A stretch of DNA of 64,000 nt. It comes from Tausonia pullulans. Taxonomy: Eukaryota; Basidiomycota; Tremellomycetes; Cystofilobasidiales; Mrakiaceae. Where the stretch lies: positions 372,001-436,000 of the forward strand of contig OX637621.1 of assembly GCA_951802195.1 (NCBI GenBank), given 5' to 3'. Under the pieces are notes generated by a model, which saw only the letters and a list, made by a program, of their open reading frames with translations, was not told the origin of the DNA and did no database searches. How positions within the stretch are numbered: position 1 is the first letter of the stretch; each line of letters opens with the position of its first letter. A program made the position numbers and the translations under genes. Positions 2,317-29,267 of the stretch are shown here, one piece after another.

Positions 2317-3872
2317 TATTCTTCCATGTCCTCGGCTTCAGCCAAGGTCACGAGGGTGCGCTCGATGGATGCCTGGGAGGACGGCGTGGAGGGGATGAGA
2401 GAAGGAGTGGAGGGTGGGTTCAGGGGGAGCGAAGATGGCGGGGATGGGGATGGGGGTGGGGGGGACGATGGTGACAGGGGAGGTGGAGTGGGGGGTGGAT
2501 GCTCGTCTTCGATCTGCATCCCGTCTTCTGTCCTCGCCAGACCCCCCTCGTTGTCATCCTCTAGGGCGCTCAGGGCGAGAACGGGTTGCGAGCCCGCATT
2601 GCGCGGTGCTTGCTCTGAGTGGGAGTGGGAGGGGCTGGCGTGGGCAGGGGGTGTGGTCACCTCCGTCATGGCTTCAGTCGGCCTGTTCAGTGACCTCCTC
2701 TTGGATTTTTGTACGAGCTGGTATCCATCCAGGTCTGGTCCCGGTTCGACAGGCCGTTGGGGGGGTCCTTCGGTTGGTGCTCGTGCACTCGCTGGAAGAT
2801 TTGCCTTTGGACGACCTGGGCATCGGGCCGATGGGTGAGCGTGCGATCCGCATCCGCCACACTCTGGAGCGGTAGGACACTTGGCACGAGCGTGCTCAAA
2901 TGAGTGGCAGTAATAGCAGTATGAGGAGGCTGGTCGAGCTGGAGAGTTCGTCCCAGTGCCAGGTTGGACAGGTTTGAAGATGACATGTTGGTTGACCCAG
3001 CCGGGTAGCTGTTGAGGGAATGCATTCGCCCTTGGCATCGTCTTGGAGCCAGAAAGGTCGAGCAGGACTCTAACCCGGCCAGTTGGGACGCCGGGTAGGC
3101 GGGCGTAATACTGACGCTGGAATATGATGACTCTGTCTCCAGAAGCTTCTACTTGTTTGCGAAAAGCTTCCTCCACTCCGTCTTCGTCTTCGAAGTTCAC
3201 CAGCAGACCTTCTTGCAGGAGCTTGTTTTGGGAATTGTAGCACGCGTGGATCTGGGGTTTGACGCCTCTCACATTCAGCGGGAGGGCCTGTAGTTGAGTC
3301 AAGATGTCTTGAGCATTTCCTCGGGAGTTGACTATAAGGAGCATTCTGTCTTTTGGGTCCTTGACAGGACGGATCATGAAAGACAGTCGTTCGTCGCACT
3401 TTGAGATTGCGAGAGAGATCTCGAAAGGAGTGGTATCTCGAGGGACTGAGATGGCTAGACAGTTCCCGCGGTCGGTAGCCAAGGCTGGGGCGATTGGGGT
3501 ATTATCCTGCGGGGGTTGTTGATCGGTTCCGAAGACGAAGGTGAACCCGGGCTGGGTGCTAGACGAGTCACGTTGCCTCGCAGCTGAGTTTGTAGAATGA
3601 GCCTGTTTTGCGGCGTGCGCATATGAGCGGCCGATGGCGTTCGGCTGGGATTTCGCGGCGGCGCGAGCGCGAGTGCCAGCGGGGGTCGCCGGCGGGGGCG
3701 ACGCGGCGCCGGGGACGAAGAGAGATTGTTGAGAGAGAGTCTCGCCTGTGGAGCGAGACGGCCACCGGGATGGTGTTTTTTTTTTTGTATTTAAGTCATG
3801 AGTTATACGTGGAGAACGAGGTAACCCTATGAGAGATAGCGAGTTGTAGCTAGATAGAGGGAGAGCGGACAT
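2316..3872 (-). CDS. LINE ORF1, zinc-knuckle RNA-binding protein (copy A)
   Basis: 518-residue ORF1 protein, expected to coat LINE RNA in the ribonucleoprotein. Layout: residues 1-32 are encoded by a captured LINE 3' end (the A-tail gives the run of Lys near 30-32); a Ser/Ala/Pro-rich stretch to about 130; a folded region about 135-300 that could be RRM-like but which I cannot assign; two CCHC knuckles of the C-x2-C-x4-H-x4-C type (C319-C322-H327-C332 and C338-C341-H346-C351); then an acidic and Pro-rich C terminus. The stop overlaps the ORF2 start as TAATG. The ATG at 3872 is the first in-frame Met after a stop in the internal copies. Confidence 0.93.
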   Translation of the reverse strand: MSALPLSSYNSLSLIGLPRSPRITHDLNTKKKTPSRWPSRSTGETLSQQSLFVPGAASPPPATPAGTRARAAAKSQPNAIGRSYAHAAKQAHSTNSAARQRDSSSTQPGFTFVFGTDQQPPQDNTPIAPALATDRGNCLAISVPRDTTPFEISLAISKCDERLSFMIRPVKDPKDRMLLIVNSRGNAQDILTQLQALPLNVRGVKPQIHACYNSQNKLLQEGLLVNFEDEDGVEEAFRKQVEASGDRVIIFQRQYYARLPGVPTGRVRVLLDLSGSKTMPRANAFPQQLPGWVNQHVIFKPVQPGTGTNSPARPASSYCYYCHSFEHARAKCPTAPECGGCGSHAHPSARCPGRPKANLPASARAPTEGPPQRPVEPGPDLDGYQLVQKSKRRSLNRPTEAMTEVTTPPAHASPSHSHSEQAPRNAGSQPVLALSALEDDNEGGLARTEDGMQIEDEHPPPTPPPLSPSSPPPPSPSPPSSLPLNPPSTPSLIPSTPSSQASIERTLVTLAEAEDMEE

Positions 3873-4007
3873 GACCGAGCGCGAGATCGTCGGGCGAGGC
3901 GCCGTGGGAAGAGGGTTGGCCGAACCACTGGGGATGGTTGGCCGGACGGCGTGATGGGCGCCGTGAGGGGGGGGTTGGTCGAACCACCGGGATGGTGTTT
4001 TTTTTTT
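3776..4007 (-). repeat. Duplicated LINE 3'-end fragments inside the leader and ORF1 start
   Basis: Two near-identical direct repeats of about 222 bases start with T11 (3776-3786) and T10 (3998-4007) and continue with a sequence about 85-90 percent like the last 90 bases of the element's own 3' UTR (4514-4600). They look like short 5'-truncated insertions into the leader monomers, later fixed in the element. The left one supplies the ORF1 start codon and first 32 codons. The arrangement is the same in copies B, C and D; copy E keeps only the T11 one. Confidence 0.8.
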
Positions 4008-4148
4008 GTATTTAAGTCATGAGCTATACGTGGAGAACGAGGTAACCCTATGAGAGATAGCGAGTTGTAGCTAGATAGAGGGAGAGCGGACATGACCCAG
4101 CGCGAGAACGTCGGGCGAGGCGCCGTGGGAAGAGGGTTGGCCGAACCA

Positions 4149-4504
4149 CTGGGGATGGTTGGCCGGACGGCGTGATGGGCGCCGTGAGAGGGGGGGTCGA
4201 ACCACCGGGATGGTGGTTGGCCGGAAGAGGGTTGGTCGAACCACCGGGGATGGTTGGCCGGACGGCGTGATGGGCGCCGTGAGAGGGGGGGTCGAACCAC
4301 CGGGATGGTGGTTGGCCGGAAGAGGGTTGGTCGAACCACCGGGGATGGTTGGCCGGACGGCGTGATGGGCGCCGTGAGAGGGGGGGTCGAACCACCGGGA
4401 TGGTGGTTGGCCGGAAGAGGGTTGGTCGAACCACCGGGGATGGTTGGCCGGACGGCGTGATGGGCGCCGTGAGAGGGGGGGTCGAACCACCGGGATGGTG
4501 GTTG
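4149..4504 (-). repeat. LINE 5' leader: four 95-base monomers (copy A)
   Basis: Tandem 95-base monomers precede the leader segment that carries the ORF1 start. Each monomer on the minus strand has two GGTTCGACC boxes, one of which extends to GGTTCGACCCC and fits the Pol III B-box consensus GWTCRANNC. Monomeric 5' UTRs are known as promoters in mouse L1; a promoter role here is inferred. Confidence 0.85.
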
Positions 4505-4737
4505 TTTTTTTTTGTATTTAAGTCATGAGTTATACGTAGAGAACGAGGTAACCCTATGAGAGATGGTGATTCGTAGCTAGATAGAAGGAAAGCGAAAATG
4601 AAAGTAGGGATGGAAGGAAAACAAAAGATGGGTTATGGACATAGGCCCATTAGAAAAGGTAAGATATTAAGATGACCAGATACACCAAGCATTGGCGATG
4701 TACCACCAGCCATACTTCCCCACCCCTGACCTGCTTT

Positions 4738-7700
4738 TCACCCGGGATCGATGGCGGCACCGACAGCAGGACCAGCCATCTGGCCACTGCCAGCCATCCA
4801 CCTCGTACTCGCCTGCCAGTGTGTCTGGCGGATTGTGGATGCGATCTTGCGGATCTCCTCGTCCGTGACAGGGTCGAGGGCTGCGATCTTGCTGTACCTC
4901 CGCCTCCGGACGGATCGCCATGTCCGGGCAACAAAGATGCAGTGGAAGAGGAAGACCCCCCTCGGCGGCGACGGTGTCGGGCAGACAAGCGTCTGGAGGG
5001 AGGGAGGATGGGAGGGGAGTGAAGGAGAGGCATGCGCTGCCGCAGCCGACCAGATAGCGCCCACGACGGGACACGGCTCGTCGAAGAGGTGGAAGAAGGA
5101 CTCAACGGGGGCCGTCAGGCACAGCGCACATCGCTTGGACCTGTTGTGCGGTGTAGCGGTGCCGTCGGCGAGGAATGCCGCAGCAGTATGCTTTCCTGGG
5201 TGGAGACTGTACAGCGAGAAGCGGTGGGCCAAGTCGACGTCTTCGGGCGACGCTCGGGACACGGCCTTGAGCAAGCACCACTGCCGCTTCCAATCGATCT
5301 TGGTAAGCGCCGGAAAGTGGTCTTGCCACCCCTTTGGGATGATGAGGCCGCGGTTGGCTAGAGTACGACTGTGTGCGCCGTGGGGCTCACGAGGGACGTT
5401 CAGCCGGCCCAGGTTTGTGTGGCCAGGGTGGAGACCCAGCCGCAACTGGCTATCTGTACCGAACGTAGACATCCAGTGGACAGCGTTCCTCCAGCGGTCT
5501 TGATTCCAGTAACTCATGTCAAAGCTGACTTCTTCGAACCATGCCCGGAGGTAAGCCTGGCATCGCGCAGGGAGAGCTCCTTGGAGCTTTGTGATGGCAT
5601 TCCACCAGACGGCTGGGAAGAACCATTGACCTTCCACTGGGGAAAGGAATACGCCTAGCCAGCTGAAATTGGCGGGCCGGGGTCCTCTGATGAACTCTCC
5701 ATCCCTGAAGATGGTGCGAGTCAGCATTCTATAAGCCCCTGGGTCGAGGCTCATGGTATGGATGATCCGCTTGCGAATACGGATCGATGCGGGAAGCTCC
5801 GGTCGGAAGAGCACATCGCCAGCCCACTGGGCGCGCACTTTGATGAGCCGGAAGCGGAGTGGCGTGAAGCCGAAGCCGCCGAGGTCTCGAGGGGTTTCCA
5901 GACGCTCCCTGCTGACGTCGTGGTGTTTCGATCGGTAGAGGGACTTGTAGGCCGTTGCCTCGAGGTCTTCCAGGATATCGTCTGGGCACGGTAGAAAGCG
6001 GTCCAGGTAGATGATCTTCGAGTAGATGTACTGGTTGATGACGTTGCATCGCGCAAGGAGAGGGAGGTCGTGCAGCGGGATGCGAGCAAGACGAGCCTTC
6101 AGCTTGCCGATGACATCTCGCCAGCAAGCAGGACCGTTGACCGTGCGACCGCATGGAACGCCGAGGAAGTCGAATGACAGCGTTTGGACGCGCCATTCGT
6201 GGTACATCGTTGGTGCATCCGTCCGGCATGACCCTAGAGGATAAAGGAGTGATTTCTGGTAGTTCAGCTTGCTTGCTGCGGCTTTCTCGTACTCTCGGAG
6301 GCAGACCGTCGCCTCATCGACCTCCGACCAGGTCCGACACCGGATACTTAGATCGTCTGCAAAGAGAAGGACCTTCCGCTCGTGTAGGGGGGGCGGATTG
6401 GCCGGTGGGAGGCGATGGCGGAGCATACATGCCAGCGGCTCCAGGAGGAGGGCGAAGATCGTCGGTGCTGCGGGATCGCCCTGTCGGACACCGGACCGGA
6501 TATGGATGGCTTGACCCATCCATCCGTTGATCATGAGCCGAGCAGTCTGGGAGGTCATCGTTGAGGTGATCCACGCGGCGGCGCGCGGACCGAACCCCAT
6601 GTGGCGGAGGCAGGGGCCAACAAAGTCGTGCGATACTCTGTCGTATGCCTTCTCAAAGTCGACTTGGGCGAGGACGCCAGGTAAAAGGTCTTCGTCGTCA
6701 ATGGCGAGCTGGAGAGAGGAGATATTGCGACCCGAGTCGCGGCCAGGGAGGAAGCCTGTCTGGTCCCCGTCGATGAGAGTGTCCACGACGGTGAGCAGGC
6801 GGCTGTTGATGGCAAGGGAGAAGATGCGAGCGTCAACGTTGATGAGCGAGATCGGACGATAGTTGGCAATCTGATCGCGATCTCCCTTCTTCTTGAAGAT
6901 GAGATGGATATGGGCCTCGCGCTGTGAGGCGGATCGGAGGCCTGTCTCCGGGACGAGGTTCAGCAGACTGAGGAGGATCGGGCCGACGGCAGCCCAAGTG
7001 GCCTGGTAGAATTCGACGGGGATCCCGTCGCTTCCTGGTGTCTTGTTACGGTTCGATCGGAACGTAGCCCGTCTGAGCTCGTCCAGTTCGAAGGGTTTCT
7101 CGAGGGTCCGACTCTGGGCGTTGTCGAGTGTGTTGGTGACATATCGGAGGACGTTGGCGTGCTCGGAAGCTGGCGTCGTCTTGGTCTCATAGAGAGTTGT
7201 GTAGAAGGCGTGTGCTGTAGCTAGAATGTTCTCGTTGTTTGCGATGGCTGCGGCCGCTGGGTTGTCGAGTGGCCGCAGGGCTGCGATAGTGTCGGCCTGG
7301 CGGACGATCTTGAGTCGCTGCTTGACGGCATACTCGCTTGTGTTGGCTGGTTCGAGGTGGGCTCGAAGAGCGTGGCCATGGAGGATCGACCTGTGTGGAT
7401 CCCCGCCTGACACTCTGCTCATTCGGGCGAGGTGTCTTGAGATGTCTGACGCGTGATCCGCTATCTGAAGCTTGGTCTCGTCCCAGGCCTCGAAGGGGTC
7501 CCTGATCTCGGTGAGCGCATCGTGGTACCACTCGGGGATATGGAATAGGAAGTACTCAACAAAACCGGTAATCTTCAGAAGGTGTGTTCCGATCTTGTAT
7601 GATCCGGGACCGTGCTCTATTGCACCGGGGAAGGTGAGGCTGAGTGCGATCGGCTTGTGGCTAGAGTACAGGTGGCCGGTCGGACGTGGTAGGAAGCGCT

Positions 7701-8412
7701 GTCGCACGGCTCGGCTAGCGAGTAGAGGCGACAGGTAGAAGCGATCAATGCGGCGATCTGCTCGCGTGATGCCAGTATAGTTGGTGTATTCGCGCTGAAG
7801 CGGGTATAGGGATCGGTATGGGTCAGAGAGGGCAAAGTCCCGGGCCAGCCGGCACATTTCCTCCTTTCCCGCATTCTGGGTAAACTGGCTCATCCCGTCG
7901 AGGTAGCTGTCTTCCACACAGTTCCAATCCCCGCCCAGAAGGAGAGGAATGTCAGAGTGGGCAGGTATCTTGCGAGATAGAGTAGAGAGGAACTCCTTTG
8001 TCGAACGGCCGTTCGATTGGCTGTCTCGGCAGGGGACGTAGACTGCAGCCACCCTGACGGCTTCACCGGCGATGACGAACACGGCATCCGTCAGGTTGGT
8101 TCGTAAGATGGGAGAGGAGCGGGAGATGGATCTGATCCTAGTCGGAGGGGTATTGGGAGGGAGGAATCGAGAGGCATGCCGCCAGAGGATGGCAGTCTGG
8201 CAACCGACCGTAAAGATCGAGCCGAAGCCCATATCTTCACACTCAGCTGTCCAGGTCGCCACTTGATCTGGTGTCGTGCATGCCACTTCTGAGAGAAGGT
8301 ATATGTCAGCCTTGGATCGTGAATAGAGAGAGAGGAGGAGACTGCGGGCGCGATCTCGCGTGAACACCCTCTGGATGTTCGCCGCGACGATTTGTACATC
8401 GTTGTACACCAT
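4738..8412 (-). CDS. LINE ORF2: APE endonuclease - reverse transcriptase - CCHC (copy B)
   Basis: 1224 residues. The protein nicks target DNA and primes cDNA synthesis on it (target-primed reverse transcription). Endonuclease, residues 1-260: N12, E42, GGDWN at 160-164, RID at 221-223 and a final SSHKP at 250-254, where most relatives have SDH. Reverse transcriptase, about 450-830: KTPGSDGIP (457-465), YRPISL (518-523), catalytic VDFEKAYD (D585), GVRQGDP (641-647) and FADD (684-687, D686/D687). C-terminal zinc motif C1095-x2-C1098-x9-H1108-x5-C1114, as in many LINE ORF2 proteins. No RNase H seen. The start ATG lies in TAATG at the ORF1 stop, so expression probably depends on stop-restart translation. 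Confidence 0.96.
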   Translation of the reverse strand: MVYNDVQIVAANIQRVFTRDRARSLLLSLYSRSKADIYLLSEVACTTPDQVATWTAECEDMGFGSIFTVGCQTAILWRHASRFLPPNTPPTRIRSISRSSPILRTNLTDAVFVIAGEAVRVAAVYVPCRDSQSNGRSTKEFLSTLSRKIPAHSDIPLLLGGDWNCVEDSYLDGMSQFTQNAGKEEMCRLARDFALSDPYRSLYPLQREYTNYTGITRADRRIDRFYLSPLLASRAVRQRFLPRPTGHLYSSHKPIALSLTFPGAIEHGPGSYKIGTHLLKITGFVEYFLFHIPEWYHDALTEIRDPFEAWDETKLQIADHASDISRHLARMSRVSGGDPHRSILHGHALRAHLEPANTSEYAVKQRLKIVRQADTIAALRPLDNPAAAAIANNENILATAHAFYTTLYETKTTPASEHANVLRYVTNTLDNAQSRTLEKPFELDELRRATFRSNRNKTPGSDGIPVEFYQATWAAVGPILLSLLNLVPETGLRSASQREAHIHLIFKKKGDRDQIANYRPISLINVDARIFSLAINSRLLTVVDTLIDGDQTGFLPGRDSGRNISSLQLAIDDEDLLPGVLAQVDFEKAYDRVSHDFVGPCLRHMGFGPRAAAWITSTMTSQTARLMINGWMGQAIHIRSGVRQGDPAAPTIFALLLEPLACMLRHRLPPANPPPLHERKVLLFADDLSIRCRTWSEVDEATVCLREYEKAAASKLNYQKSLLYPLGSCRTDAPTMYHEWRVQTLSFDFLGVPCGRTVNGPACWRDVIGKLKARLARIPLHDLPLLARCNVINQYIYSKIIYLDRFLPCPDDILEDLEATAYKSLYRSKHHDVSRERLETPRDLGGFGFTPLRFRLIKVRAQWAGDVLFRPELPASIRIRKRIIHTMSLDPGAYRMLTRTIFRDGEFIRGPRPANFSWLGVFLSPVEGQWFFPAVWWNAITKLQGALPARCQAYLRAWFEEVSFDMSYWNQDRWRNAVHWMSTFGTDSQLRLGLHPGHTNLGRLNVPREPHGAHSRTLANRGLIIPKGWQDHFPALTKIDWKRQWCLLKAVSRASPEDVDLAHRFSLYSLHPGKHTAAAFLADGTATPHNRSKRCALCLTAPVESFFHLFDEPCPVVGAIWSAAAAHASPSLPSHPPSLQTLVCPTPSPPRGVFLFHCIFVARTWRSVRRRRYSKIAALDPVTDEEIRKIASTIRQTHWQASTRWMAGSGQMAGPAVGAAIDPG

Positions 8413-9968
8413 TATTCTTCCATGTCCTCGGCTTCAGCCAAGGTCACGAGGGTGCGCTCGATGGATGCCTGGGAGGACGGCGTGGAGGGGATGAGAGAAG
8501 GAGTGGAGGGTGGGTTCAGGGGGAGCGAAGATGGCGGGGATGGGGATGGGGGTGGGGGGGACGATGGTGACAGGGGAGGTGGAGTGGGGGGTGGATGCTC
8601 GTCTTCGATCTGCATCCCGTCTTCTGTCCTCGCCAGACCCCCCTCGTTGTCATCCTCTAGGGCGCTCAGGGCGAGAACGGGTTGCGAGCCCGCATTGCGC
8701 GGTGCTTGCTCTGAGTGGGAGTGGGAGGGGCTGGCGTGGGCAGGGGGTGTGGTCACCTCCGTCATGGCTTCAGTCGGCCTGTTCAGTGACCTCCTCTTGG
8801 ATTTTTGTACGAGCTGGTATCCATCCAGGTCTGGTCCCGGTTCGACAGGCCGTTGGGGGGGTCCTTCGGTTGGTGCTCGTGCACTCGCTGGAAGATTTGC
8901 CTTTGGACGACCTGGGCATCGGGCCGATGGGTGAGCGTGCGATCCGCATCCGCCACACTCTGGAGCGGTAGGACACTTGGCACGAGCGTGCTCAAATGAG
9001 TGGCAGTAATAGCAGTATGAGGAGGCTGGTCGAGCTGGAGAGTTCGTCCCAGTGCCAGGTTGGACAGGTTTGAAGATGACATGTTGGTTGACCCAGCCGG
9101 GTAGCTGTTGAGGGAATGCATTCGCCCTTGGCATCGTCTTGGAGCCAGAAAGGTCGAGCAGGACTCTAACCCGGCCAGTTGGGACGCCGGGTAGGCGGGC
9201 GTAATACTGACGCTGGAATATGATGACTCTGTCTCCAGAAGCTTCTACTTGTTTGCGAAAAGCTTCCTCCACTCCGTCTTCGTCTTCGAAGTTCACCAGC
9301 AGACCTTCTTGCAGGAGCTTGTTTTGGGAATTGTAGCACGCGTGGATCTGGGGTTTGACGCCTCTCACATTCAGCGGGAGGGCCTGTAGTTGAGTCAAGA
9401 TGTCTTGAGCATTTCCTCGGGAGTTGACTATAAGGAGCATTCTGTCTTTTGGGTCCTTGACAGGACGGATCATGAAAGACAGTCGTTCGTCGCACTTTGA
9501 GATTGCGAGAGAGATCTCGAAAGGAGTGGTATCTCGAGGGACTGAGATGGCTAGACAGTTCCCGCGGTCGGTAGCCAAGGCTGGGGCGATTGGGGTATTA
9601 TCCTGCGGGGGTTGTTGATCGGTTCCGAAGACGAAGGTGAACCCGGGCTGGGTGCTAGACGAGTCACGTTGCCTCGCAGCTGAGTTTGTAGAATGAGCCT
9701 GTTTTGCGGCGTGCGCATATGAGCGGCCGATGGCGTTCGGCTGGGATTTCGCGGCGGCGCGAGCGCGAGTGCCAGCGGGGGTCGCCGGCGGGGGCGACGC
9801 GGCGCCGGGGACGAAGAGAGATTGTTGAGAGAGAGTCTCGCCTGTGGAGCGAGACGGCCACCGGGATGGTGTTTTTTTTTTTGTATTTAAGTCATGAGTT
9901 ATACGTGGAGAACGAGGTAACCCTATGAGAGATAGCGAGTTGTAGCTAGATAGAGGGAGAGCGGACAT
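8412..9968 (-). CDS. LINE ORF1 (copy B)
   Basis: 518 residues, identical to ORF1 of copy A, with the same two CCHC knuckles (319-332 and 338-351) and the same captured A-tail codons near residue 30. The T11 run at 9871-9881 has the same length as in every other copy. Confidence 0.93.
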   Translation of the reverse strand: MSALPLSSYNSLSLIGLPRSPRITHDLNTKKKTPSRWPSRSTGETLSQQSLFVPGAASPPPATPAGTRARAAAKSQPNAIGRSYAHAAKQAHSTNSAARQRDSSSTQPGFTFVFGTDQQPPQDNTPIAPALATDRGNCLAISVPRDTTPFEISLAISKCDERLSFMIRPVKDPKDRMLLIVNSRGNAQDILTQLQALPLNVRGVKPQIHACYNSQNKLLQEGLLVNFEDEDGVEEAFRKQVEASGDRVIIFQRQYYARLPGVPTGRVRVLLDLSGSKTMPRANAFPQQLPGWVNQHVIFKPVQPGTGTNSPARPASSYCYYCHSFEHARAKCPTAPECGGCGSHAHPSARCPGRPKANLPASARAPTEGPPQRPVEPGPDLDGYQLVQKSKRRSLNRPTEAMTEVTTPPAHASPSHSHSEQAPRNAGSQPVLALSALEDDNEGGLARTEDGMQIEDEHPPPTPPPLSPSSPPPPSPSPPSSLPLNPPSTPSLIPSTPSSQASIERTLVTLAEAEDMEE

Positions 9969-10244
9969 GACCGAGCGCGAGATCGTCGGGCGAGGCGCCG
10001 TGGGAAGAGGGTTGGCCGAACCACTGGGGATGGTTGGCCGGACGGCGTGATGGGCGCCGTGAGGGGGGGGTTGGTCGAACCACCGGGATGGTGTTTTTTT
10101 TTTGTATTTAAGTCATGAGCTATACGTGGAGAACGAGGTAACCCTATGAGAGATAGCGAGTTGTAGCTAGATAGAGGGAGAGCGGACATGACCCAGCGCG
10201 AGAACGTCGGGCGAGGCGCCGTGGGAAGAGGGTTGGCCGAACCA

Positions 10245-10790
10245 CTGGGGATGGTTGGCCGGACGGCGTGATGGGCGCCGTGAGAGGGGGGGTCGAACCA
10301 CCGGGATGGTGGTTGGCCGGAAGAGGGTTGGTCGAACCACCGGGGATGGTTGGCCGGACGGCGTGATGGGCGCCGTGAGAGGGGGGGTCGAACCACCGGG
10401 ATGGTGGTTGGCCGGAAGAGGGTTGGTCGAACCACCGGGGATGGTTGGCCGGACGGCGTGATGGGCGCCGTGAGAGGGGGGGTCGAACCACCGGGATGGT
10501 GGTTGGCCGGAAGAGGGTTGGTCGAACCACCGGGGATGGTTGGCCGGACGGCGTGATGGGCGCCGTGAGAGGGGGGGTCGAACCACCGGGATGGTGGTTG
10601 GCCGGAAGAGGGTTGGTCGAACCACCGGGGATGGTTGGCTGGACGGCGTGATGGGCGCCGTGAGAGGGGGGGTCGAACCACCGGGATGGTGGTTGGCCGG
10701 AAGAGGGTTGGTCGAACCACCGGGGATGGTTGGCCGGACGGCGTGATGGGCGCCGTGAGAGGGGGGGTCGAACCACCGGGATGGTGGTTG
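10245..10790 (-). repeat. LINE 5' leader: six 95-base monomers (copy B)
   Basis: Six monomers instead of four account for the 190-base longer period. One monomer has a private base change (ggctgg for ggccgg at about 10637) that recurs at the same place in copy C, so B and C derive from one six-monomer ancestor. Confidence 0.88.
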
Positions 10791-11023
10791 TTTTTTTTTG
10801 TATTTAAGTCATGAGTTATACGTAGAGAACGAGGTAACCCTATGAGAGATGGTGATTCGTAGCTAGATAGAAGGAAAGCGAAAATGAAAGTAGGGATGGA
10901 AGGAAAACAAAAGATGGGTTATGGACATAGGCCCATTAGAAAAGGTAAGATATTAAGATGACCAGATACACCAAGCATTGGCGATGTACCACCAGCCATA
11001 CTTCCCCACCCCTGACCTGCTTT

Positions 11024-14000
11024 TCACCCGGGATCGATGGCGGCACCGACAGCAGGACCAGCCATCTGGCCACTGCCAGCCATCCACCTCGTACTCGCCT
11101 GCCAGTGTGTCTGGCGGATTGTGGATGCGATCTTGCGGATCTCCTCGTCCGTGACAGGGTCGAGGGCTGCGATCTTGCTGTACCTCCGCCTCCGGACGGA
11201 TCGCCATGTCCGGGCAACAAAGATGCAGTGGAAGAGGAAGACCCCCCTCGGCGGCGACGGTGTCGGGCAGACAAGCGTCTGGAGGGAGGGAGGATGGGAG
11301 GGGAGTGAAGGAGAGGCATGCGCTGCCGCAGCCGACCAGATAGCGCCCACGACGGGACACGGCTCGTCGAAGAGGTGGAAGAAGGACTCAACGGGGGCCG
11401 TCAGGCACAGCGCACATCGCTTGGACCTGTTGTGCGGTGTAGCGGTGCCGTCGGCGAGGAATGCCGCAGCAGTATGCTTTCCTGGGTGGAGACTGTACAG
11501 CGAGAAGCGGTGGGCCAAGTCGACGTCTTCGGGCGACGCTCGGGACACGGCCTTGAGCAAGCACCACTGCCGCTTCCAATCGATCTTGGTAAGCGCCGGA
11601 AAGTGGTCTTGCCACCCCTTTGGGATGATGAGGCCGCGGTTGGCTAGAGTACGACTGTGTGCGCCGTGGGGCTCACGAGGGACGTTCAGCCGGCCCAGGT
11701 TTGTGTGGCCAGGGTGGAGACCCAGCCGCAACTGGCTATCTGTACCGAACGTAGACATCCAGTGGACAGCGTTCCTCCAGCGGTCTTGATTCCAGTAACT
11801 CATGTCAAAGCTGACTTCTTCGAACCATGCCCGGAGGTAAGCCTGGCATCGCGCAGGGAGAGCTCCTTGGAGCTTTGTGATGGCATTCCACCAGACGGCT
11901 GGGAAGAACCATTGACCTTCCACTGGGGAAAGGAATACGCCTAGCCAGCTGAAATTGGCGGGCCGGGGTCCTCTGATGAACTCTCCATCCCTGAAGATGG
12001 TGCGAGTCAGCATTCTATAAGCCCCTGGGTCGAGGCTCATGGTATGGATGATCCGCTTGCGAATACGGATCGATGCGGGAAGCTCCGGTCGGAAGAGCAC
12101 ATCGCCAGCCCACTGGGCGCGCACTTTGATGAGCCGGAAGCGGAGTGGCGTGAAGCCGAAGCCGCCGAGGTCTCGAGGGGTTTCCAGACGCTCCCTGCTG
12201 ACGTCGTGGTGTTTCGATCGGTAGAGGGACTTGTAGGCCGTTGCCTCGAGGTCTTCCAGGATATCGTCTGGGCACGGTAGAAAGCGGTCCAGGTAGATGA
12301 TCTTCGAGTAGATGTACTGGTTGATGACGTTGCATCGCGCAAGGAGAGGGAGGTCGTGCAGCGGGATGCGAGCAAGACGAGCCTTCAGCTTGCCGATGAC
12401 ATCTCGCCAGCAAGCAGGACCGTTGACCGTGCGACCGCATGGAACGCCGAGGAAGTCGAATGACAGCGTTTGGACGCGCCATTCGTGGTACATCGTTGGT
12501 GCATCCGTCCGGCATGACCCTAGAGGATAAAGGAGTGATTTCTGGTAGTTCAGCTTGCTTGCTGCGGCTTTCTCGTACTCTCGGAGGCAGACCGTCGCCT
12601 CATCGACCTCCGACCAGGTCCGACACCGGATACTTAGATCGTCTGCAAAGAGAAGGACCTTCCGCTCGTGTAGGGGGGGCGGATTGGCCGGTGGGAGGCG
12701 ATGGCGGAGCATACATGCCAGCGGCTCCAGGAGGAGGGCGAAGATCGTCGGTGCTGCGGGATCGCCCTGTCGGACACCGGACCGGATATGGATGGCTTGA
12801 CCCATCCATCCGTTGATCATGAGCCGAGCAGTCTGGGAGGTCATCGTTGAGGTGATCCACGCGGCGGCGCGCGGACCGAACCCCATGTGGCGGAGGCAGG
12901 GGCCAACAAAGTCGTGCGATACTCTGTCGTATGCCTTCTCAAAGTCGACTTGGGCGAGGACGCCAGGTAAAAGGTCTTCGTCGTCAATGGCGAGCTGGAG
13001 AGAGGAGATATTGCGACCCGAGTCGCGGCCAGGGAGGAAGCCTGTCTGGTCCCCGTCGATGAGAGTGTCCACGACGGTGAGCAGGCGGCTGTTGATGGCA
13101 AGGGAGAAGATGCGAGCGTCAACGTTGATGAGCGAGATCGGACGATAGTTGGCAATCTGATCGCGATCTCCCTTCTTCTTGAAGATGAGATGGATATGGG
13201 CCTCGCGCTGTGAGGCGGATCGGAGGCCTGTCTCCGGGACGAGGTTCAGCAGACTGAGGAGGATCGGGCCGACGGCAGCCCAAGTGGCCTGGTAGAATTC
13301 GACGGGGATCCCGTCGCTTCCTGGTGTCTTGTTACGGTTCGATCGGAACGTAGCCCGTCTGAGCTCGTCCAGTTCGAAGGGTTTCTCGAGGGTCCGACTC
13401 TGGGCGTTGTCGAGTGTGTTGGTGACATATCGGAGGACGTTGGCGTGCTCGGAAGCTGGCGTCGTCTTGGTCTCATAGAGAGTTGTGTAGAAGGCGTGTG
13501 CTGTAGCTAGAATGTTCTCGTTGTTTGCGATGGCTGCGGCCGCTGGGTTGTCGAGTGGCCGCAGGGCTGCGATAGTGTCGGCCTGGCGGACGATCTTGAG
13601 TCGCTGCTTGACGGCATACTCGCTTGTGTTGGCTGGTTCGAGGTGGGCTCGAAGAGCGTGGCCATGGAGGATCGACCTGTGTGGATCCCCGCCTGACACT
13701 CTGCTCATTCGGGCGAGGTGTCTTGAGATGTCTGACGCGTGATCCGCTATCTGAAGCTTGGTCTCGTCCCAGGCCTCGAAGGGGTCCCTGATCTCGGTGA
13801 GCGCATCGTGGTACCACTCGGGGATATGGAATAGGAAGTACTCAACAAAACCGGTAATCTTCAGAAGGTGTGTTCCGATCTTGTATGATCCGGGACCGTG
13901 CTCTATTGCACCGGGGAAGGTGAGGCTGAGTGCGATCGGCTTGTGGCTAGAGTACAGGTGGCCGGTCGGACGTGGTAGGAAGCGCTGTCGCACGGCTCGG

Positions 14001-14698
14001 CTAGCGAGTAGAGGCGACAGGTAGAAGCGATCAATGCGGCGATCTGCTCGCGTGATGCCAGTATAGTTGGTGTATTCGCGCTGAAGCGGGTATAGGGATC
14101 GGTATGGGTCAGAGAGGGCAAAGTCCCGGGCCAGCCGGCACATTTCCTCCTTTCCCGCATTCTGGGTAAACTGGCTCATCCCGTCGAGGTAGCTGTCTTC
14201 CACACAGTTCCAATCCCCGCCCAGAAGGAGAGGAATGTCAGAGTGGGCAGGTATCTTGCGAGATAGAGTAGAGAGGAACTCCTTTGTCGAACGGCCGTTC
14301 GATTGGCTGTCTCGGCAGGGGACGTAGACTGCAGCCACCCTGACGGCTTCACCGGCGATGACGAACACGGCATCCGTCAGGTTGGTTCGTAAGATGGGAG
14401 AGGAGCGGGAGATGGATCTGATCCTAGTCGGAGGGGTATTGGGAGGGAGGAATCGAGAGGCATGCCGCCAGAGGATGGCAGTCTGGCAACCGACCGTAAA
14501 GATCGAGCCGAAGCCCATATCTTCACACTCAGCTGTCCAGGTCGCCACTTGATCTGGTGTCGTGCATGCCACTTCTGAGAGAAGGTATATGTCAGCCTTG
14601 GATCGTGAATAGAGAGAGAGGAGGAGACTGCGGGCGCGATCTCGCGTGAACACCCTCTGGATGTTCGCCGCGACGATTTGTACATCGTTGTACACCAT
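11024..14698 (-). CDS. LINE ORF2 (copy C)
   Basis: 1224-residue endonuclease-reverse transcriptase, identical in predicted sequence to copy B, with all catalytic boxes present and the TAATG junction at 14698. Confidence 0.96.
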   Translation of the reverse strand: MVYNDVQIVAANIQRVFTRDRARSLLLSLYSRSKADIYLLSEVACTTPDQVATWTAECEDMGFGSIFTVGCQTAILWRHASRFLPPNTPPTRIRSISRSSPILRTNLTDAVFVIAGEAVRVAAVYVPCRDSQSNGRSTKEFLSTLSRKIPAHSDIPLLLGGDWNCVEDSYLDGMSQFTQNAGKEEMCRLARDFALSDPYRSLYPLQREYTNYTGITRADRRIDRFYLSPLLASRAVRQRFLPRPTGHLYSSHKPIALSLTFPGAIEHGPGSYKIGTHLLKITGFVEYFLFHIPEWYHDALTEIRDPFEAWDETKLQIADHASDISRHLARMSRVSGGDPHRSILHGHALRAHLEPANTSEYAVKQRLKIVRQADTIAALRPLDNPAAAAIANNENILATAHAFYTTLYETKTTPASEHANVLRYVTNTLDNAQSRTLEKPFELDELRRATFRSNRNKTPGSDGIPVEFYQATWAAVGPILLSLLNLVPETGLRSASQREAHIHLIFKKKGDRDQIANYRPISLINVDARIFSLAINSRLLTVVDTLIDGDQTGFLPGRDSGRNISSLQLAIDDEDLLPGVLAQVDFEKAYDRVSHDFVGPCLRHMGFGPRAAAWITSTMTSQTARLMINGWMGQAIHIRSGVRQGDPAAPTIFALLLEPLACMLRHRLPPANPPPLHERKVLLFADDLSIRCRTWSEVDEATVCLREYEKAAASKLNYQKSLLYPLGSCRTDAPTMYHEWRVQTLSFDFLGVPCGRTVNGPACWRDVIGKLKARLARIPLHDLPLLARCNVINQYIYSKIIYLDRFLPCPDDILEDLEATAYKSLYRSKHHDVSRERLETPRDLGGFGFTPLRFRLIKVRAQWAGDVLFRPELPASIRIRKRIIHTMSLDPGAYRMLTRTIFRDGEFIRGPRPANFSWLGVFLSPVEGQWFFPAVWWNAITKLQGALPARCQAYLRAWFEEVSFDMSYWNQDRWRNAVHWMSTFGTDSQLRLGLHPGHTNLGRLNVPREPHGAHSRTLANRGLIIPKGWQDHFPALTKIDWKRQWCLLKAVSRASPEDVDLAHRFSLYSLHPGKHTAAAFLADGTATPHNRSKRCALCLTAPVESFFHLFDEPCPVVGAIWSAAAAHASPSLPSHPPSLQTLVCPTPSPPRGVFLFHCIFVARTWRSVRRRRYSKIAALDPVTDEEIRKIASTIRQTHWQASTRWMAGSGQMAGPAVGAAIDPG

Positions 14699-16254
14699 TA
14701 TTCTTCCATGTCCTCGGCTTCAGCCAAGGTCACGAGGGTGCGCTCGATGGATGCCTGGGAGGACGGCGTGGAGGGGATGAGAGAAGGAGTGGAGGGTGGG
14801 TTCAGGGGGAGCGAAGATGGCGGGGATGGGGATGGGGGTGGGGGGGACGATGGTGACAGGGGAGGTGGAGTGGGGGGTGGATGCTCGTCTTCGATCTGCA
14901 TCCCGTCTTCTGTCCTCGCCAGACCCCCCTCGTTGTCATCCTCTAGGGCGCTCAGGGCGAGAACGGGTTGCGAGCCCGCATTGCGCGGTGCTTGCTCTGA
15001 GTGGGAGTGGGAGGGGCTGGCGTGGGCAGGGGGTGTGGTCACCTCCGTCATGGCTTCAGTCGGCCTGTTCAGTGACCTCCTCTTGGATTTTTGTACGAGC
15101 TGGTATCCATCCAGGTCTGGTCCCGGTTCGACAGGCCGTTGGGGGGGTCCTTCGGTTGGTGCTCGTGCACTCGCTGGAAGATTTGCCTTTGGACGACCTG
15201 GGCATCGGGCCGATGGGTGAGCGTGCGATCCGCATCCGCCACACTCTGGAGCGGTAGGACACTTGGCACGAGCGTGCTCAAATGAGTGGCAGTAATAGCA
15301 GTATGAGGAGGCTGGTCGAGCTGGAGAGTTCGTCCCAGTGCCAGGTTGGACAGGTTTGAAGATGACATGTTGGTTGACCCAGCCGGGTAGCTGTTGAGGG
15401 AATGCATTCGCCCTTGGCATCGTCTTGGAGCCAGAAAGGTCGAGCAGGACTCTAACCCGGCCAGTTGGGACGCCGGGTAGGCGGGCGTAATACTGACGCT
15501 GGAATATGATGACTCTGTCTCCAGAAGCTTCTACTTGTTTGCGAAAAGCTTCCTCCACTCCGTCTTCGTCTTCGAAGTTCACCAGCAGACCTTCTTGCAG
15601 GAGCTTGTTTTGGGAATTGTAGCACGCGTGGATCTGGGGTTTGACGCCTCTCACATTCAGCGGGAGGGCCTGTAGTTGAGTCAAGATGTCTTGAGCATTT
15701 CCTCGGGAGTTGACTATAAGGAGCATTCTGTCTTTTGGGTCCTTGACAGGACGGATCATGAAAGACAGTCGTTCGTCGCACTTTGAGATTGCGAGAGAGA
15801 TCTCGAAAGGAGTGGTATCTCGAGGGACTGAGATGGCTAGACAGTTCCCGCGGTCGGTAGCCAAGGCTGGGGCGATTGGGGTATTATCCTGCGGGGGTTG
15901 TTGATCGGTTCCGAAGACGAAGGTGAACCCGGGCTGGGTGCTAGACGAGTCACGTTGCCTCGCAGCTGAGTTTGTAGAATGAGCCTGTTTTGCGGCGTGC
16001 GCATATGAGCGGCCGATGGCGTTCGGCTGGGATTTCGCGGCGGCGCGAGCGCGAGTGCCAGCGGGGGTCGCCGGCGGGGGCGACGCGGCGCCGGGGACGA
16101 AGAGAGATTGTTGAGAGAGAGTCTCGCCTGTGGAGCGAGACGGCCACCGGGATGGTGTTTTTTTTTTTGTATTTAAGTCATGAGTTATACGTGGAGAACG
16201 AGGTAACCCTATGAGAGATAGCGAGTTGTAGCTAGATAGAGGGAGAGCGGACAT
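14698..16254 (-). CDS. LINE ORF1 (copy C)
   Basis: 518-residue double-CCHC ORF1 protein, identical to copies A and B. It overlaps ORF2 by one base. Confidence 0.93.
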   Translation of the reverse strand: MSALPLSSYNSLSLIGLPRSPRITHDLNTKKKTPSRWPSRSTGETLSQQSLFVPGAASPPPATPAGTRARAAAKSQPNAIGRSYAHAAKQAHSTNSAARQRDSSSTQPGFTFVFGTDQQPPQDNTPIAPALATDRGNCLAISVPRDTTPFEISLAISKCDERLSFMIRPVKDPKDRMLLIVNSRGNAQDILTQLQALPLNVRGVKPQIHACYNSQNKLLQEGLLVNFEDEDGVEEAFRKQVEASGDRVIIFQRQYYARLPGVPTGRVRVLLDLSGSKTMPRANAFPQQLPGWVNQHVIFKPVQPGTGTNSPARPASSYCYYCHSFEHARAKCPTAPECGGCGSHAHPSARCPGRPKANLPASARAPTEGPPQRPVEPGPDLDGYQLVQKSKRRSLNRPTEAMTEVTTPPAHASPSHSHSEQAPRNAGSQPVLALSALEDDNEGGLARTEDGMQIEDEHPPPTPPPLSPSSPPPPSPSPPSSLPLNPPSTPSLIPSTPSSQASIERTLVTLAEAEDMEE

Positions 16255-16530
16255 GACCGAGCGCGAGATCGTCGGGCGAGGCGCCGTGGGAAGAGGGTTG
16301 GCCGAACCACTGGGGATGGTTGGCCGGACGGCGTGATGGGCGCCGTGAGGGGGGGGTTGGTCGAACCACCGGGATGGTGTTTTTTTTTTGTATTTAAGTC
16401 ATGAGCTATACGTGGAGAACGAGGTAACCCTATGAGAGATAGCGAGTTGTAGCTAGATAGAGGGAGAGCGGACATGACCCAGCGCGAGAACGTCGGGCGA
16501 GGCGCCGTGGGAAGAGGGTTGGCCGAACCA

Positions 16531-17076
16531 CTGGGGATGGTTGGCCGGACGGCGTGATGGGCGCCGTGAGAGGGGGGGTCGAACCACCGGGATGGTGGTT
16601 GGCCGGAAGAGGGTTGGTCGAACCACCGGGGATGGTTGGCCGGACGGCGTGATGGGCGCCGTGAGAGGGGGGGTCGAACCACCGGGATGGTGGTTGGCCG
16701 GAAGAGGGTTGGTCGAACCACCGGGGATGGTTGGCCGGACGGCGTGATGGGCGCCGTGAGAGGGGGGGTCGAACCACCGGGATGGTGGTTGGCCGGAAGA
16801 GGGTTGGTCGAACCACCGGGGATGGTTGGCCGGACGGCGTGATGGGCGCCGTGAGAGGGGGGGTCGAACCACCGGGATGGTGGTTGGCCGGAAGAGGGTT
16901 GGTCGAACCACCGGGGATGGTTGGCTGGACGGCGTGATGGGCGCCGTGAGAGGGGGGGTCGAACCACCGGGATGGTGGTTGGCCGGAAGAGGGTTGGTCG
17001 AACCACCGGGGATGGTTGGCCGGACGGCGTGATGGGCGCCGTGAGAGGGGGGGTCGAACCACCGGGATGGTGGTTG
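16531..17076 (-). repeat. LINE 5' leader: six 95-base monomers (copy C)
   Basis: Six monomers, including the ggctgg variant monomer shared with copy B. The leader is joined at its 5' end to the 9-A tail of copy D. Confidence 0.88.
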
Positions 17077-17309
17077 TTTTTTTTTGTATTTAAGTCATGA
17101 GTTATACGTAGAGAACGAGGTAACCCTATGAGAGATGGTGATTCGTAGCTAGATAGAAGGAAAGCGAAAATGAAAGTAGGGATGGAAGGAAAACAAAAGA
17201 TGGGTTATGGACATAGGCCCATTAGAAAAGGTAAGATATTAAGATGACCAGATACACCAAGCATTGGCGATGTACCACCAGCCATACTTCCCCACCCCTG
17301 ACCTGCTTT

Positions 17310-20300
17310 TCACCCGGGATCGATGGCGGCACCGACAGCAGGACCAGCCATCTGGCCACTGCCAGCCATCCACCTCGTACTCGCCTGCCAGTGTGTCTGG
17401 CGGATTGTGGATGCGATCTTGCGGATCTCCTCGTCCGTGACAGGGTCGAGGGCTGCGATCTTGCTGTACCTCCGCCTCCGGACGGATCGCCATGTCCGGG
17501 CAACAAAGATGCAGTGGAAGAGGAAGACCCCCCTCGGCGGCGACGGTGTCGGGCAGACAAGCGTCTGGAGGGAGGGAGGATGGGAGGGGAGTGAAGGAGA
17601 GGCATGCGCTGCCGCAGCCGACCAGATAGCGCCCACGACGGGACACGGCTCGTCGAAGAGGTGGAAGAAGGACTCAACGGGGGCCGTCAGGCACAGCGCA
17701 CATCGCTTGGACCTGTTGTGCGGTGTAGCGGTGCCGTCGGCGAGGAATGCCGCAGCAGTATGCTTTCCTGGGTGGAGACTGTACAGCGAGAAGCGGTGGG
17801 CCAAGTCGACGTCTTCGGGCGACGCTCGGGACACGGCCTTGAGCAAGCACCACTGCCGCTTCCAATCGATCTTGGTAAGCGCCGGAAAGTGGTCTTGCCA
17901 CCCCTTTGGGATGATGAGGCCGCGGTTGGCTAGAGTACGACTGTGTGCGCCGTGGGGCTCACGAGGGACGTTCAGCCGGCCCAGGTTTGTGTGGCCAGGG
18001 TGGAGACCCAGCCGCAACTGGCTATCTGTACCGAACGTAGACATCCAGTGGACAGCGTTCCTCCAGCGGTCTTGATTCCAGTAACTCATGTCAAAGCTGA
18101 CTTCTTCGAACCATGCCCGGAGGTAAGCCTGGCATCGCGCAGGGAGAGCTCCTTGGAGCTTTGTGATGGCATTCCACCAGACGGCTGGGAAGAACCATTG
18201 ACCTTCCACTGGGGAAAGGAATACGCCTAGCCAGCTGAAATTGGCGGGCCGGGGTCCTCTGATGAACTCTCCATCCCTGAAGATGGTGCGAGTCAGCATT
18301 CTATAAGCCCCTGGGTCGAGGCTCATGGTATGGATGATCCGCTTGCGAATACGGATCGATGCGGGAAGCTCCGGTCGGAAGAGCACATCGCCAGCCCACT
18401 GGGCGCGCACTTTGATGAGCCGGAAGCGGAGTGGCGTGAAGCCGAAGCCGCCGAGGTCTCGAGGGGTTTCCAGACGCTCCCTGCTGACGTCGTGGTGTTT
18501 CGATCGGTAGAGGGACTTGTAGGCCGTTGCCTCGAGGTCTTCCAGGATATCGTCTGGGCACGGTAGAAAGCGGTCCAGGTAGATGATCTTCGAGTAGATG
18601 TACTGGTTGATGACGTTGCATCGCGCAAGGAGAGGGAGGTCGTGCAGCGGGATGCGAGCAAGACGAGCCTTCAGCTTGCCGATGACATCTCGCCAGCAAG
18701 CAGGACCGTTGACCGTGCGACCGCATGGAACGCCGAGGAAGTCGAATGACAGCGTTTGGACGCGCCATTCGTGGTACATCGTTGGTGCATCCGTCCGGCA
18801 TGACCCTAGAGGATAAAGGAGTGATTTCTGGTAGTTCAGCTTGCTTGCTGCGGCTTTCTCGTACTCTCGGAGGCAGACCGTCGCCTCATCGACCTCCGAC
18901 CAGGTCCGACACCGGATACTTAGATCGTCTGCAAAGAGAAGGACCTTCCGCTCGTGTAGGGGGGGCGGATTGGCCGGTGGGAGGCGATGGCGGAGCATAC
19001 ATGCCAGCGGCTCCAGGAGGAGGGCGAAGATCGTCGGTGCTGCGGGATCGCCCTGTCGGACACCGGACCGGATATGGATGGCTTGACCCATCCATCCGTT
19101 GATCATGAGCCGAGCAGTCTGGGAGGTCATCGTTGAGGTGATCCACGCGGCGGCGCGCGGACCGAACCCCATGTGGCGGAGGCAGGGGCCAACAAAGTCG
19201 TGCGATACTCTGTCGTATGCCTTCTCAAAGTCGACTTGGGCGAGGACGCCAGGTAAAAGGTCTTCGTCGTCAATGGCGAGCTGGAGAGAGGAGATATTGC
19301 GACCCGAGTCGCGGCCAGGGAGGAAGCCTGTCTGGTCCCCGTCGATGAGAGTGTCCACGACGGTGAGCAGGCGGCTGTTGATGGCAAGGGAGAAGATGCG
19401 AGCGTCAACGTTGATGAGCGAGATCGGACGATAGTTGGCAATCTGATCGCGATCTCCCTTCTTCTTGAAGATGAGATGGATATGGGCCTCGCGCTGTGAG
19501 GCGGATCGGAGGCCTGTCTCCGGGACGAGGTTCAGCAGACTGAGGAGGATCGGGCCGACGGCAGCCCAAGTGGCCTGGTAGAATTCGACGGGGATCCCGT
19601 CGCTTCCTGGTGTCTTGTTACGGTTCGATCGGAACGTAGCCCGTCTGAGCTCGTCCAGTTCGAAGGGTTTCTCGAGGGTCCGACTCTGGGCGTTGTCGAG
19701 TGTGTTGGTGACATATCGGAGGACGTTGGCGTGCTCGGAAGCTGGCGTCGTCTTGGTCTCATAGAGAGTTGTGTAGAAGGCGTGTGCTGTAGCTAGAATG
19801 TTCTCGTTGTTTGCGATGGCTGCGGCCGCTGGGTTGTCGAGTGGCCGCAGGGCTGCGATAGTGTCGGCCTGGCGGACGATCTTGAGTCGCTGCTTGACGG
19901 CATACTCGCTTGTGTTGGCTGGTTCGAGGTGGGCTCGAAGAGCGTGGCCATGGAGGATCGACCTGTGTGGATCCCCGCCTGACACTCTGCTCATTCGGGC
20001 GAGGTGTCTTGAGATGTCTGACGCGTGATCCGCTATCTGAAGCTTGGTCTCGTCCCAGGCCTCGAAGGGGTCCCTGATCTCGGTGAGCGCATCGTGGTAC
20101 CACTCGGGGATATGGAATAGGAAGTACTCAACAAAACCGGTAATCTTCAGAAGGTGTGTTCCGATCTTGTATGATCCGGGACCGTGCTCTATTGCACCGG
20201 GGAAGGTGAGGCTGAGTGCGATCGGCTTGTGGCTAGAGTACAGGTGGCCGGTCGGACGTGGTAGGAAGCGCTGTCGCACGGCTCGGCTAGCGAGTAGAGG

Positions 20301-22540: not shown

Positions 22541-22816
22541 GACCGAGCGCGAGATCGTCGGGCGAGGCGCCGTGGGAAGAGGGTTGGCCGAACCACTGGG
22601 GATGGTTGGCCGGACGGCGTGATGGGCGCCGTGAGGGGGGGGTTGGTCGAACCACCGGGATGGTGTTTTTTTTTTGTATTTAAGTCATGAGCTATACGTG
22701 GAGAACGAGGTAACCCTATGAGAGATAGCGAGTTGTAGCTAGATAGAGGGAGAGCGGACATGACCCAGCGCGAGAACGTCGGGCGAGGCGCCGTGGGAAG
22801 AGGGTTGGCCGAACCA

Positions 22817-23172
22817 CTGGGGATGGTTGGCCGGACGGCGTGATGGGCGCCGTGAGAGGGGGGGTCGAACCACCGGGATGGTGGTTGGCCGGAAGAGGGT
22901 TGGTCGAACCACCGGGGATGGTTGGCCGGACGGCGTGATGGGCGCCGTGAGAGGGGGGGTCGAACCACCGGGATGGTGGTTGGCCGGAAGAGGGTTGGTC
23001 GAACCACCGGGGATGGTTGGCCGGACGGCGTGATGGGCGCCGTGAGAGGGGGGGTCGAACCACCGGGATGGTGGTTGGCCGGAAGAGGGTTGGTCGAACC
23101 ACCGGGGATGGTTGGCCGGACGGCGTGATGGGCGCCGTGAGAGGGGGGGTCGAACCACCGGGATGGTGGTTG
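22817..23172 (-). repeat. LINE 5' leader: four 95-base monomers (copy D)
   Basis: Four monomers as in copy A, without the variant monomer of copies B and C. It adjoins the 9-A tail of copy E (23173-23181). Confidence 0.88.
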
Positions 23173-23405
23173 TTTTTTTTTGTATTTAAGTCATGAGTTA
23201 TACGTAGAGAACGAGGTAACCCTATGAGAGATGGTGATTCGTAGCTAGATAGAAGGAAAGCGAAAATGAAAGTAGGGATGGAAGGAAAACAAAAGATGGG
23301 TTATGGACATAGGCCCATTAGAAAAGGTAAGATATTAAGATGACCAGATACACCAAGCATTGGCGATGTACCACCAGCCATACTTCCCCACCCCTGACCT
23401 GCTTT

Positions 23406-28636: not shown

Positions 28637-28682
28637 GACCGAGCGCGAGATCGTCGGGCGAGGCGCCGTGGGAAGAGGGTTG

Positions 28683-29120
28683 GCCGAACCACTGGGGATG
28701 GTTGGCCGGACGGCGTGATGGGCGCCGTGAGGGGGGGGTTGGTCGAACCACCGGGATGGTGGTTGGCCGGAAGAGGGTTGGTCGAACCACCGGGGATGGT
28801 TGGCCGGACGGCGTGATGGGCGCCGTGGGAGGGGGGTTGGTCGAACCACCGGGGATGGTTGGCCGGACGGCGTGATGGGCGCCGTGGGAGGGGGGTTGGT
28901 CGAACCACCGGGGATGGTTGGCCGGACGGCGTGATGGGCGCCGTGGGAGGGGGGTTGGTCGAACCACCGGGATGGTGGTTGGCCGGAAGGGGGTTGGTCG
29001 AACCACCGGGATGGTGATAAGGCCGGACGGCGTGATGGGCGCCGTGGGAGGGGGGTTGGTCGAACCACCGGGATGGTGGTTGGGCGGAAGGGGGTTGGTC
29101 GAACCACCGGGATGGTGGTT
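28683..29120 (-). repeat. LINE 5' leader, divergent monomers (copy E)
   Basis: Tandem leader monomers with changed spacing and sequence relative to copies A-D. On the minus strand most boxes read GGTTCGACCAACC, so fewer of them fit the B-box consensus. The last recognisable unit ends near 29120. Confidence 0.8.
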
Positions 29121-29189
29121 TGGTGGTTGGATTGTAAAAACGTAATAAGTATAGAATCTACGTTGGGCTTGTCAGCGCATTGATGTTGT

Positions 29190-29263: not shown

Positions 29264-29267
29264 TGTA

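Follow-up and report, generated by a model that had tools for sequence, protein, structure and literature searches.

A LINE and a short SINE-like unit stack upstream of tRNA genes in Tausonia pullulans

The first 29 kb of a 64-kb stretch of the Tausonia pullulans genome (C2:372001-436000, on contig OX637621.1; GC 58.7%), hereafter the window, are made of units of a long interspersed nuclear element (LINE), all on the minus strand and arranged head-to-tail. Reading this family across the genome assembly (23.86 Mb in 21 contigs, written as C and a number; positions without a contig are those of the window), we found that an L1-type LINE and a short partner resembling a short interspersed nuclear element (SINE) very probably insert upstream of tRNA genes, at a distance of about 60-120 bp and facing away from the gene, and that reuse of this slot builds stacks of copies.

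Two samples established the position. The first was chosen by tRNA genes: 63 were taken by Rfam covariance score alone out of 897 candidates, and for 62 of them the upstream 300 bp were read. An element lay within these 300 bp in 36/62, and 35 of the 36 were divergent: 34 of them lay 61-148 bp from the gene and one 278 bp away; the sole same-strand piece (220 bp) belongs to a neighbouring stack. On the downstream side, the nearest piece was 440 bp off (first 40 tRNA genes, each read for 200 bp or more to either side). The second sample was chosen by elements. It comprised 62 merged regions totalling 256 kb, of which the window, with its one tRNA gene, makes up 64 kb. These regions held 58 tRNA genes (introns allowed), and 42 of the 49 clusters with a visible 5' end had a tRNA gene on the opposite strand 41-123 bp away; 30 further clusters, whose 5' end fell outside the stretch read, were not counted. 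Over all fetched regions, which are a sample partly chosen for elements and in which we estimate BLAST borders to be uncertain by about 10 bp, the upstream 250 bp held 55 divergent elements and 1 other at 89 tRNA genes, and the downstream 250 bp held 1 at 88. Distances to the tRNA gene showed no clear difference between solitary (median 89.5, n=14) and stacked elements (median 82.5, n=28; p 0.08), as expected if the tRNA gene is the ruler. A candidate tRNA-SeC(TCA), called by ARAGORN at C2:1457419-1457513, also has an element 71-75 bp upstream.

Several observations weigh against this reading. No element was detected at 26/62 tRNA genes. Nineteen of these 26 are on C6 and largely share a few near-identical duplicated flanks, so that they are not independent; duplicated flanks occur among the positives too, and hence the tRNA genes are not all independent either. 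One gene counted as element-free, at C1:135884, does have a remnant, a 3' stub some 20 bp long and ending in A10, that the search had not detected. Seven of the 49 clusters lack a tRNA gene within 160 bp, although two of them have one at about 260 bp, and at the loci of these seven Rfam shows no RNA genes other than tRNA genes. The distances, mostly 61-123 bp, span a wider range than the 44-54 bp (47+/-3) of the TRE5 elements of Dictyostelium, and a target-site duplication (TSD) of 5 nt is lacking in 17/42 pairs of flanks. Finally, the genome is compact, and selection against insertions at other sites could make the pattern sharper. As a separate observation, C6:684-1270 kb holds many segmentally duplicated tRNA genes, and the element is lacking at 19 of the 20 C6 tRNA genes sampled.

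The short partner begins with monomers starting CACCATCCC(C)GGTGGTTCGACC, which are followed by a copy of about 100 bp of the LINE 3' end and an A-tail. Solitary short units of about 215 bp are found with unrelated 3' flanks, for instance at C1:326209 and C8:947198 (2709-2923). In its size (about 215 bp or more), its lack of coding sequence, its LINE-like 3' end, its A-tail and its TSDs, the short unit resembles LINE-dependent SINEs, suggesting that the LINE mobilises it; it differs from them in sharing the tRNA address of its LINE and in a head that often carries tandem monomers. No A box was identified in it by eye. The 5' terminus of the unit was read from C6:964492, where a short unit sits near one of several segmentally duplicated tRNA genes and empty paralogous flanks are available. 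The empty relatives read CCCCCGTCTACCGGCTACCGG (...CCCCCGTCTACCGGCTACC), while the filled site reads CCCCCGTCTACC, then ACCATCCCCGGTGG and, after A9, GTCTACCGGCTACCGG; schematically, ...CCCCC[GTCTACC]ACCATCCCCGGTGG...A9[GTCTACC]GGCTACC, with a 7-bp duplication. From this comparison it follows that the inserted unit starts, at its 5' terminus, with CACCATCCCGGTGG and that its TSD is GTCTACC. The full LINE begins with ACCACCACCAGGTCA, about 34 nt ahead of the start codon of the first open reading frame (ORF1). In the window, roughly 150 codons are missing from the start of ORF1, and the LINE is fused to CACCATCCCGGTGG; a genome-wide search for the chimeric joint, with up to 2 mismatches, gave 7 matches, none of them outside the C2 array. 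The leader of each array unit is a pile of such short units. From the tRNA gene inwards, the array and its parts are as follows (UTR, untranslated region).

29189..29264, plus strand: tRNA-Ile(AAT) gene (ARAGORN; Rfam RF00005, 57.1 bits at 29190-29263)
29122..29129, minus strand: CAACCACC, proposed from the sequence as the TSD in the 5' flank of the outermost copy
28540..29121, minus strand: outermost short (SINE-like) unit, with 5' end, monomers, LINE-like 3' end and A11 tail
23173..28539, minus strand: outermost LINE copy, 5'-truncated, with part of ORF1, ORF2 (23406-27080), 3' UTR and A9 tail (23173-23181)
17077..23172, minus strand: array unit of 6096 bp, short units plus LINE; A9 tail 17077-17085, ORF2 17310-20984
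10791..17076, minus strand: array unit of 6286 bp with two extra 95-bp monomers; ORF2 11024-14698
4505..10790, minus strand: array unit of 6286 bp, short units plus LINE
10094..10790, minus strand: short unit with 95-bp monomers and A10 tail (10094-10103)
9872..10093, minus strand: second short unit, from CACCATCCCGGTGG through the A11 tail (9872-9882)
8412..9968, minus strand: ORF1 of an array unit, 518 aa
4738..8412, minus strand: ORF2, 1224 aa, with an APE-type endonuclease (weak Pfam match) and a reverse transcriptase
4505..4513, minus strand: A9 tail that closes the unit; after it comes CAACCACCATCCCGGTGG, with which the next copy begins (5' end)
3776..4504, minus strand: two short units before the next LINE copy, with tails A10 (3998-4007) and A11 (3776-3786)

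A preliminary description of the window had proposed that the element targets itself, its endonuclease recognising CACCATCCCGGTGG within the element's own leader. What it reported of the tails is accurate: read on the minus strand, the runs T11 (3776-3786), T10 (3998-4007) and T9 (4505-4513) of the plus strand are each followed by (CAAC)CACCATCCCGGTGG, and the four joins at 4505, 10791, 17077 and 23173 have the same sequence. It counted three tails per unit, but the outermost unit has two (A11 and A9). Tail and motif are separated by a linker of 0 to about 16 nt whose composition depends on the locus. The motif does lie in the leader, yet this leader is one or two short retroposed units and the motif is the 5' end of an inserted unit. 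All 13 array tails inside the window join the motif, and a genome-wide search for a tail, 0-30 nt and CATCCCGGTGG gave 49 exact matches against 0 in a reversed control (18 of the 49 being in the C2 array); some insertions even interrupt the motif or start a few bases into it. The family at large behaves otherwise. Among the 131 distinct tails read in the fetched regions, with lengths from A0 to A24, the exact motif was within 30 nt of only 20, and within 45 nt of 25 when one mismatch was allowed. It was absent from all 34 joins onto 3'-UTR or ORF2 pieces and, with one mismatch allowed, appeared at 1 of the 58 unstacked tails, so there is no constant 3' flank. The filled and empty sites at C6 place the motif in the insert and not in the target. 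Solitary short units have unrelated 3' flanks without the motif, many with TSDs of their own, which is the finding that the preliminary description had itself named as speaking against its proposal. On the grounds of the filled/empty pair, the count over 131 tails and the classes of stacked joins we rejected targeting of the leader motif, to which we now give hardly any credence.

The same description had placed insertions just upstream of existing copies, in head-to-tail order, and this was borne out well beyond the array: 73/131 tails reach a same-strand piece within 30 nt, and 1 an opposite-strand piece. The next piece is the start of a short unit in 27 of the 73 (motif in 22, one mismatch allowed), the 3' UTR or ORF2 of a truncated LINE in 34 (motif in none), the LINE 5' start in 8 (motif in 1) and ORF1 in 4 (motif in 1). 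Whatever occupies the slot is abutted, and a leader is unnecessary; the tail-to-head stacks arise because of repeated arrivals at one tRNA gene. By eye, some of the 58 other tails sit inside older copies. Matches of at least 5 nt resembling a TSD were present in 25/42 pairs of flanks from the same element, against 8% of mismatched pairs. In some stacks the steps can be read from duplicated loci. As an example, C9:511054 preserves a pre-insertion state with the older LINE start alone (ACAACCACCACCGGGTGGTGCGACC), while in its duplicate (C9:547438/553662) a new LINE, whose middle is covered only as an ORF2 match, lies within that older start; the tail at C9:553662 is followed by CCACCACCGGGTGGTGCGACC, and the TSD is CCACCACC. 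C6:1196679 and C6:1151017 form a second such pair, of pre-insertion state and insertion, with the TSD CGCCC. At a tRNA-Gly gene, C8:947198 shows three consecutive stacked pieces with CCTTCC in common. A second LINE-like 5' start, ACCACCACCGGGTGGTGCGACCGC, apparently of another LINE family, was seen in the same tRNA slot at C9:510734-511034 and C9:553662.

These separate TSDs and pre-insertion states at several stacked joins are hard to reconcile with a single-event origin of concatemers, whether through template jumping or through retroposition of a multi-unit RNA (with tags of the HeT-A kind). Some loci do look like that: at C5:1299208-1302962 one TSD (TCGTGGAC) encloses an array of about 1.7 kb with several short units, CTCGAAC linkers are shared by three unlinked loci (on C6, C14 and C19), and the ORF1 of the array is fused to a short unit. 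Single events may explain some multi-unit leaders but not the association with tRNA genes, and as a general account we hold them to be rather doubtful. Another possibility is that the leaders themselves act as Pol III (RNA polymerase III) sites, the B-box-like GGTTCGA words of the monomers binding TFIIIC and thereby attracting insertions. The array has 20 perfect GGTTCGANNCC words, each on the sense strand and with the spacing of the 95-bp monomers (e.g. 10224-10790), against 1 in the remainder of the window, and the part of a review available to us states that B boxes suffice to attract TRE5-A (PMC5633606). Nevertheless, the divergent rule combined with a sense-strand B box predicts the orientation opposite to that of the stacks, with their 73 same-strand joins against 1, and stacks also form on pieces free of monomers. 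We consider this feedback very unlikely and rejected it on orientation. Nicking of old A-tails was rejected as well: it fits a few joins, among them C14:508055, whose TSD may extend over seven As, and leaves the association with tRNA genes unexplained.

For insertion into a reused slot upstream of tRNA genes, we propose the following course. The LINE and the short partner, which have a common 3' end, would both insert by target-primed reverse transcription, the ruler being the tRNA gene through its bound Pol III factors and not a DNA word. A later arrival would take the same slot, either next to the copy already there, at its 5' end, or within the first few bases of that copy. The product would then read as a new A-tail, a brief target duplication and the older copy's 5' end, this last being (CAAC)CACCATCCCGGTGG for a short unit, ACCACCACCAGGTCA for a full LINE and any internal LINE sequence if the copy was truncated. 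The array in the window would be such a stack beside tRNA-Ile, of which one block was afterwards multiplied by unequal exchange. In this account the position, the orientation, the 5' terminus, the duplications and the stacking are observed, and steering by Pol III factors, mobilisation of the short partner through the LINE and unequal exchange are inferred.

The array as a whole spans C2:362.6-401.1 kb and contains six full ORF2 copies, with join-to-join spacings of 6096, 6096, 6286, 6286 and 6096 bp; inside the window, units vary in having four or six 95-bp monomers. The tRNA-Ile(AAT) gene is presumably the address of this array, which lies upstream of it on the opposite strand and points away, with a gap of 67 bp between the gene and the outermost short unit (5' end (A)AACCACCATCCCGGTGG at 29121-29104). 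At each internal join in the window, the A9 tail runs directly into the 8 bases of CAACCACC, which are proposed as a TSD. This is the weakest of our TSD readings, as the word also occurs in the element's own 5' end and chance or homology is possible. The oldest join is A12-CCACC, while the other five are A9-CAACCACC and identical, and the LINE cores are identical over 5368 bp in the four units whole within the window. The identical joins and cores speak for one join that was duplicated and not for five insertions. Array growth by repeated independent insertions, with no unequal exchange, would agree with how common stacking by insertion is in this genome. It is an unlikely origin for the entire array, given that five joins agree to the base although tails elsewhere range from A0 to A24, and that the cores are identical. 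The outermost copy, moreover, starts with AAACCACC after the flanking CAACCACC and so differs from the internal joins, which is what copying of a single join would leave. The array is thus best explained by one insertion that would have created the A9 join, with unequal exchange later multiplying the block of short units, 5'-truncated LINE and join. Head-to-tail LINE arrays are also formed by Zepp in Chlorella and by HeT-A and TART in Drosophila, where they are telomeric or centromeric; the present one adjoins a tRNA gene and occupies 362-401 kb on a contig of 1.77 Mb, and we rejected a telomeric array of the HeT-A or Zepp type on this position. The innermost unit (C2:362618) has an ORF1, 94% like the others, without ORF2 or a 3' end, and the sequence beyond it is unmatched to the element.

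The proteins and ends of the LINE are of the L1 type. In L1-type elements an APE endonuclease nicks the target, and cDNA synthesis is primed on the A-tail. ORF2 matches the reverse transcriptase family RVT_1 (E 2.6e-25) and, below the gathering score, Exo_endo_phos (E 2.3e-4); no RNase H was found in it by Pfam. Its closest solved structures are L1 ORF2p (E 4e-44), against 4e-15 for R2. Over 14 aligned sequences the catalytic residues of the endonuclease and reverse transcriptase are kept: E42, D162, N164, H252 and ADD 685-687 are invariant, and N12 is nearly so. An A-tail, TSDs of variable length and 5' truncation complete the picture. ORF1 has two CCHC-type knuckles (by eye), and its stop overlaps the start of ORF2 as TAATG. 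In the array, the part of ORF1 derived from the LINE begins at CCGTCTCGC (about 9857), and the first 37 or so codons of the frame come from the short unit, through the A11 tail. The ORF1 of array units (8412-9968, minus strand, and its copies) is accordingly a chimeric frame of 518 aa that starts in a short unit and runs in-frame across A11 into the truncated LINE ORF1. The family is numerous: a 16-base word of the 3' end has 462 genome matches (up to 2 mismatches) against 0 in the control, there are at least 38 full-length ORF2 copies (38 scored out of 385 candidates), of which 35 have no internal stop and six are in the array, and ORF2 proteins of dispersed copies are 96-99% identical.

The closest parallel is TRE5-A of Dictyostelium discoideum. 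In the portions of three sources available (PMC5911963, PMC5006619, PMC5391098), TRE5-A is described with two ORFs, APE and reverse transcriptase without detected RNase H, an oligo(A) tail, divergent insertion upstream of tRNA genes, variable TSDs and a non-autonomous partner, all as in the present element, and the same portions note stacking at one tRNA gene in dictyostelids. Divergent upstream insertion is the rule here too (35/36, over 62 tRNA genes). The differences are the distance, the passage from ORF1 to ORF2 (a -1 frameshift in TRE5-A, the TAATG overlap here), the ORF1 knuckles, and a fungal host with a window GC of 58.7%. For TRE5, the sections available of PMC5911963 and PMC5633606 report that the ORF1 protein contacts TFIIIB and that the B box of the tRNA gene is needed; by analogy, the same kind of guidance by Pol III may act here. 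We regard the element as working like TRE5 without calling it a TRE: the distance is larger, the ORF junction is another, and no named TRE appeared among the protein matches, nor when the protein search was run again with an alignment. NLTR-B of Polysphondylium pallidum is likewise a non-LTR (long terminal repeat) element and inserts 39-64 bp upstream of tRNA genes, but in the available part of PMC5911963 it has RNase H and three ORFs.

That same part gives tRNA-gene-targeted non-LTR retrotransposons for dictyostelids only, and no LINE targeting tRNA genes outside dictyostelids was among the matches listed in open-licence literature. We think it likely that a fungal host harbours a tRNA-guided LINE/SINE pair independent of the dictyostelid TREs, in which the slot is measured from the Pol III complex, sequence is ignored, the slot is refilled and tRNA genes seed arrays. 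A second lineage with upstream divergent geometry would, if true, be a natural replicate for the steering of LINEs to Pol III genes and a source of gene-sparing insertion modules. It would also mean that head-to-tail LINE arrays are possible without a self-recognition site, through reuse of a fixed address.

Outside the array, 13 non-LINE ORFs of the window were searched with Pfam and gave no match. A fungal host is also suggested by 11 matches to Zn2Cys6 and by the lack of any chlorophyll-binding match. One of the 13 ORFs is an enhancer-of-polycomb-like gene at 45374-46372 (plus strand); its product is 99% identical to a database protein from a source tagged lgn, and the nearest matches named by organism are fungal.

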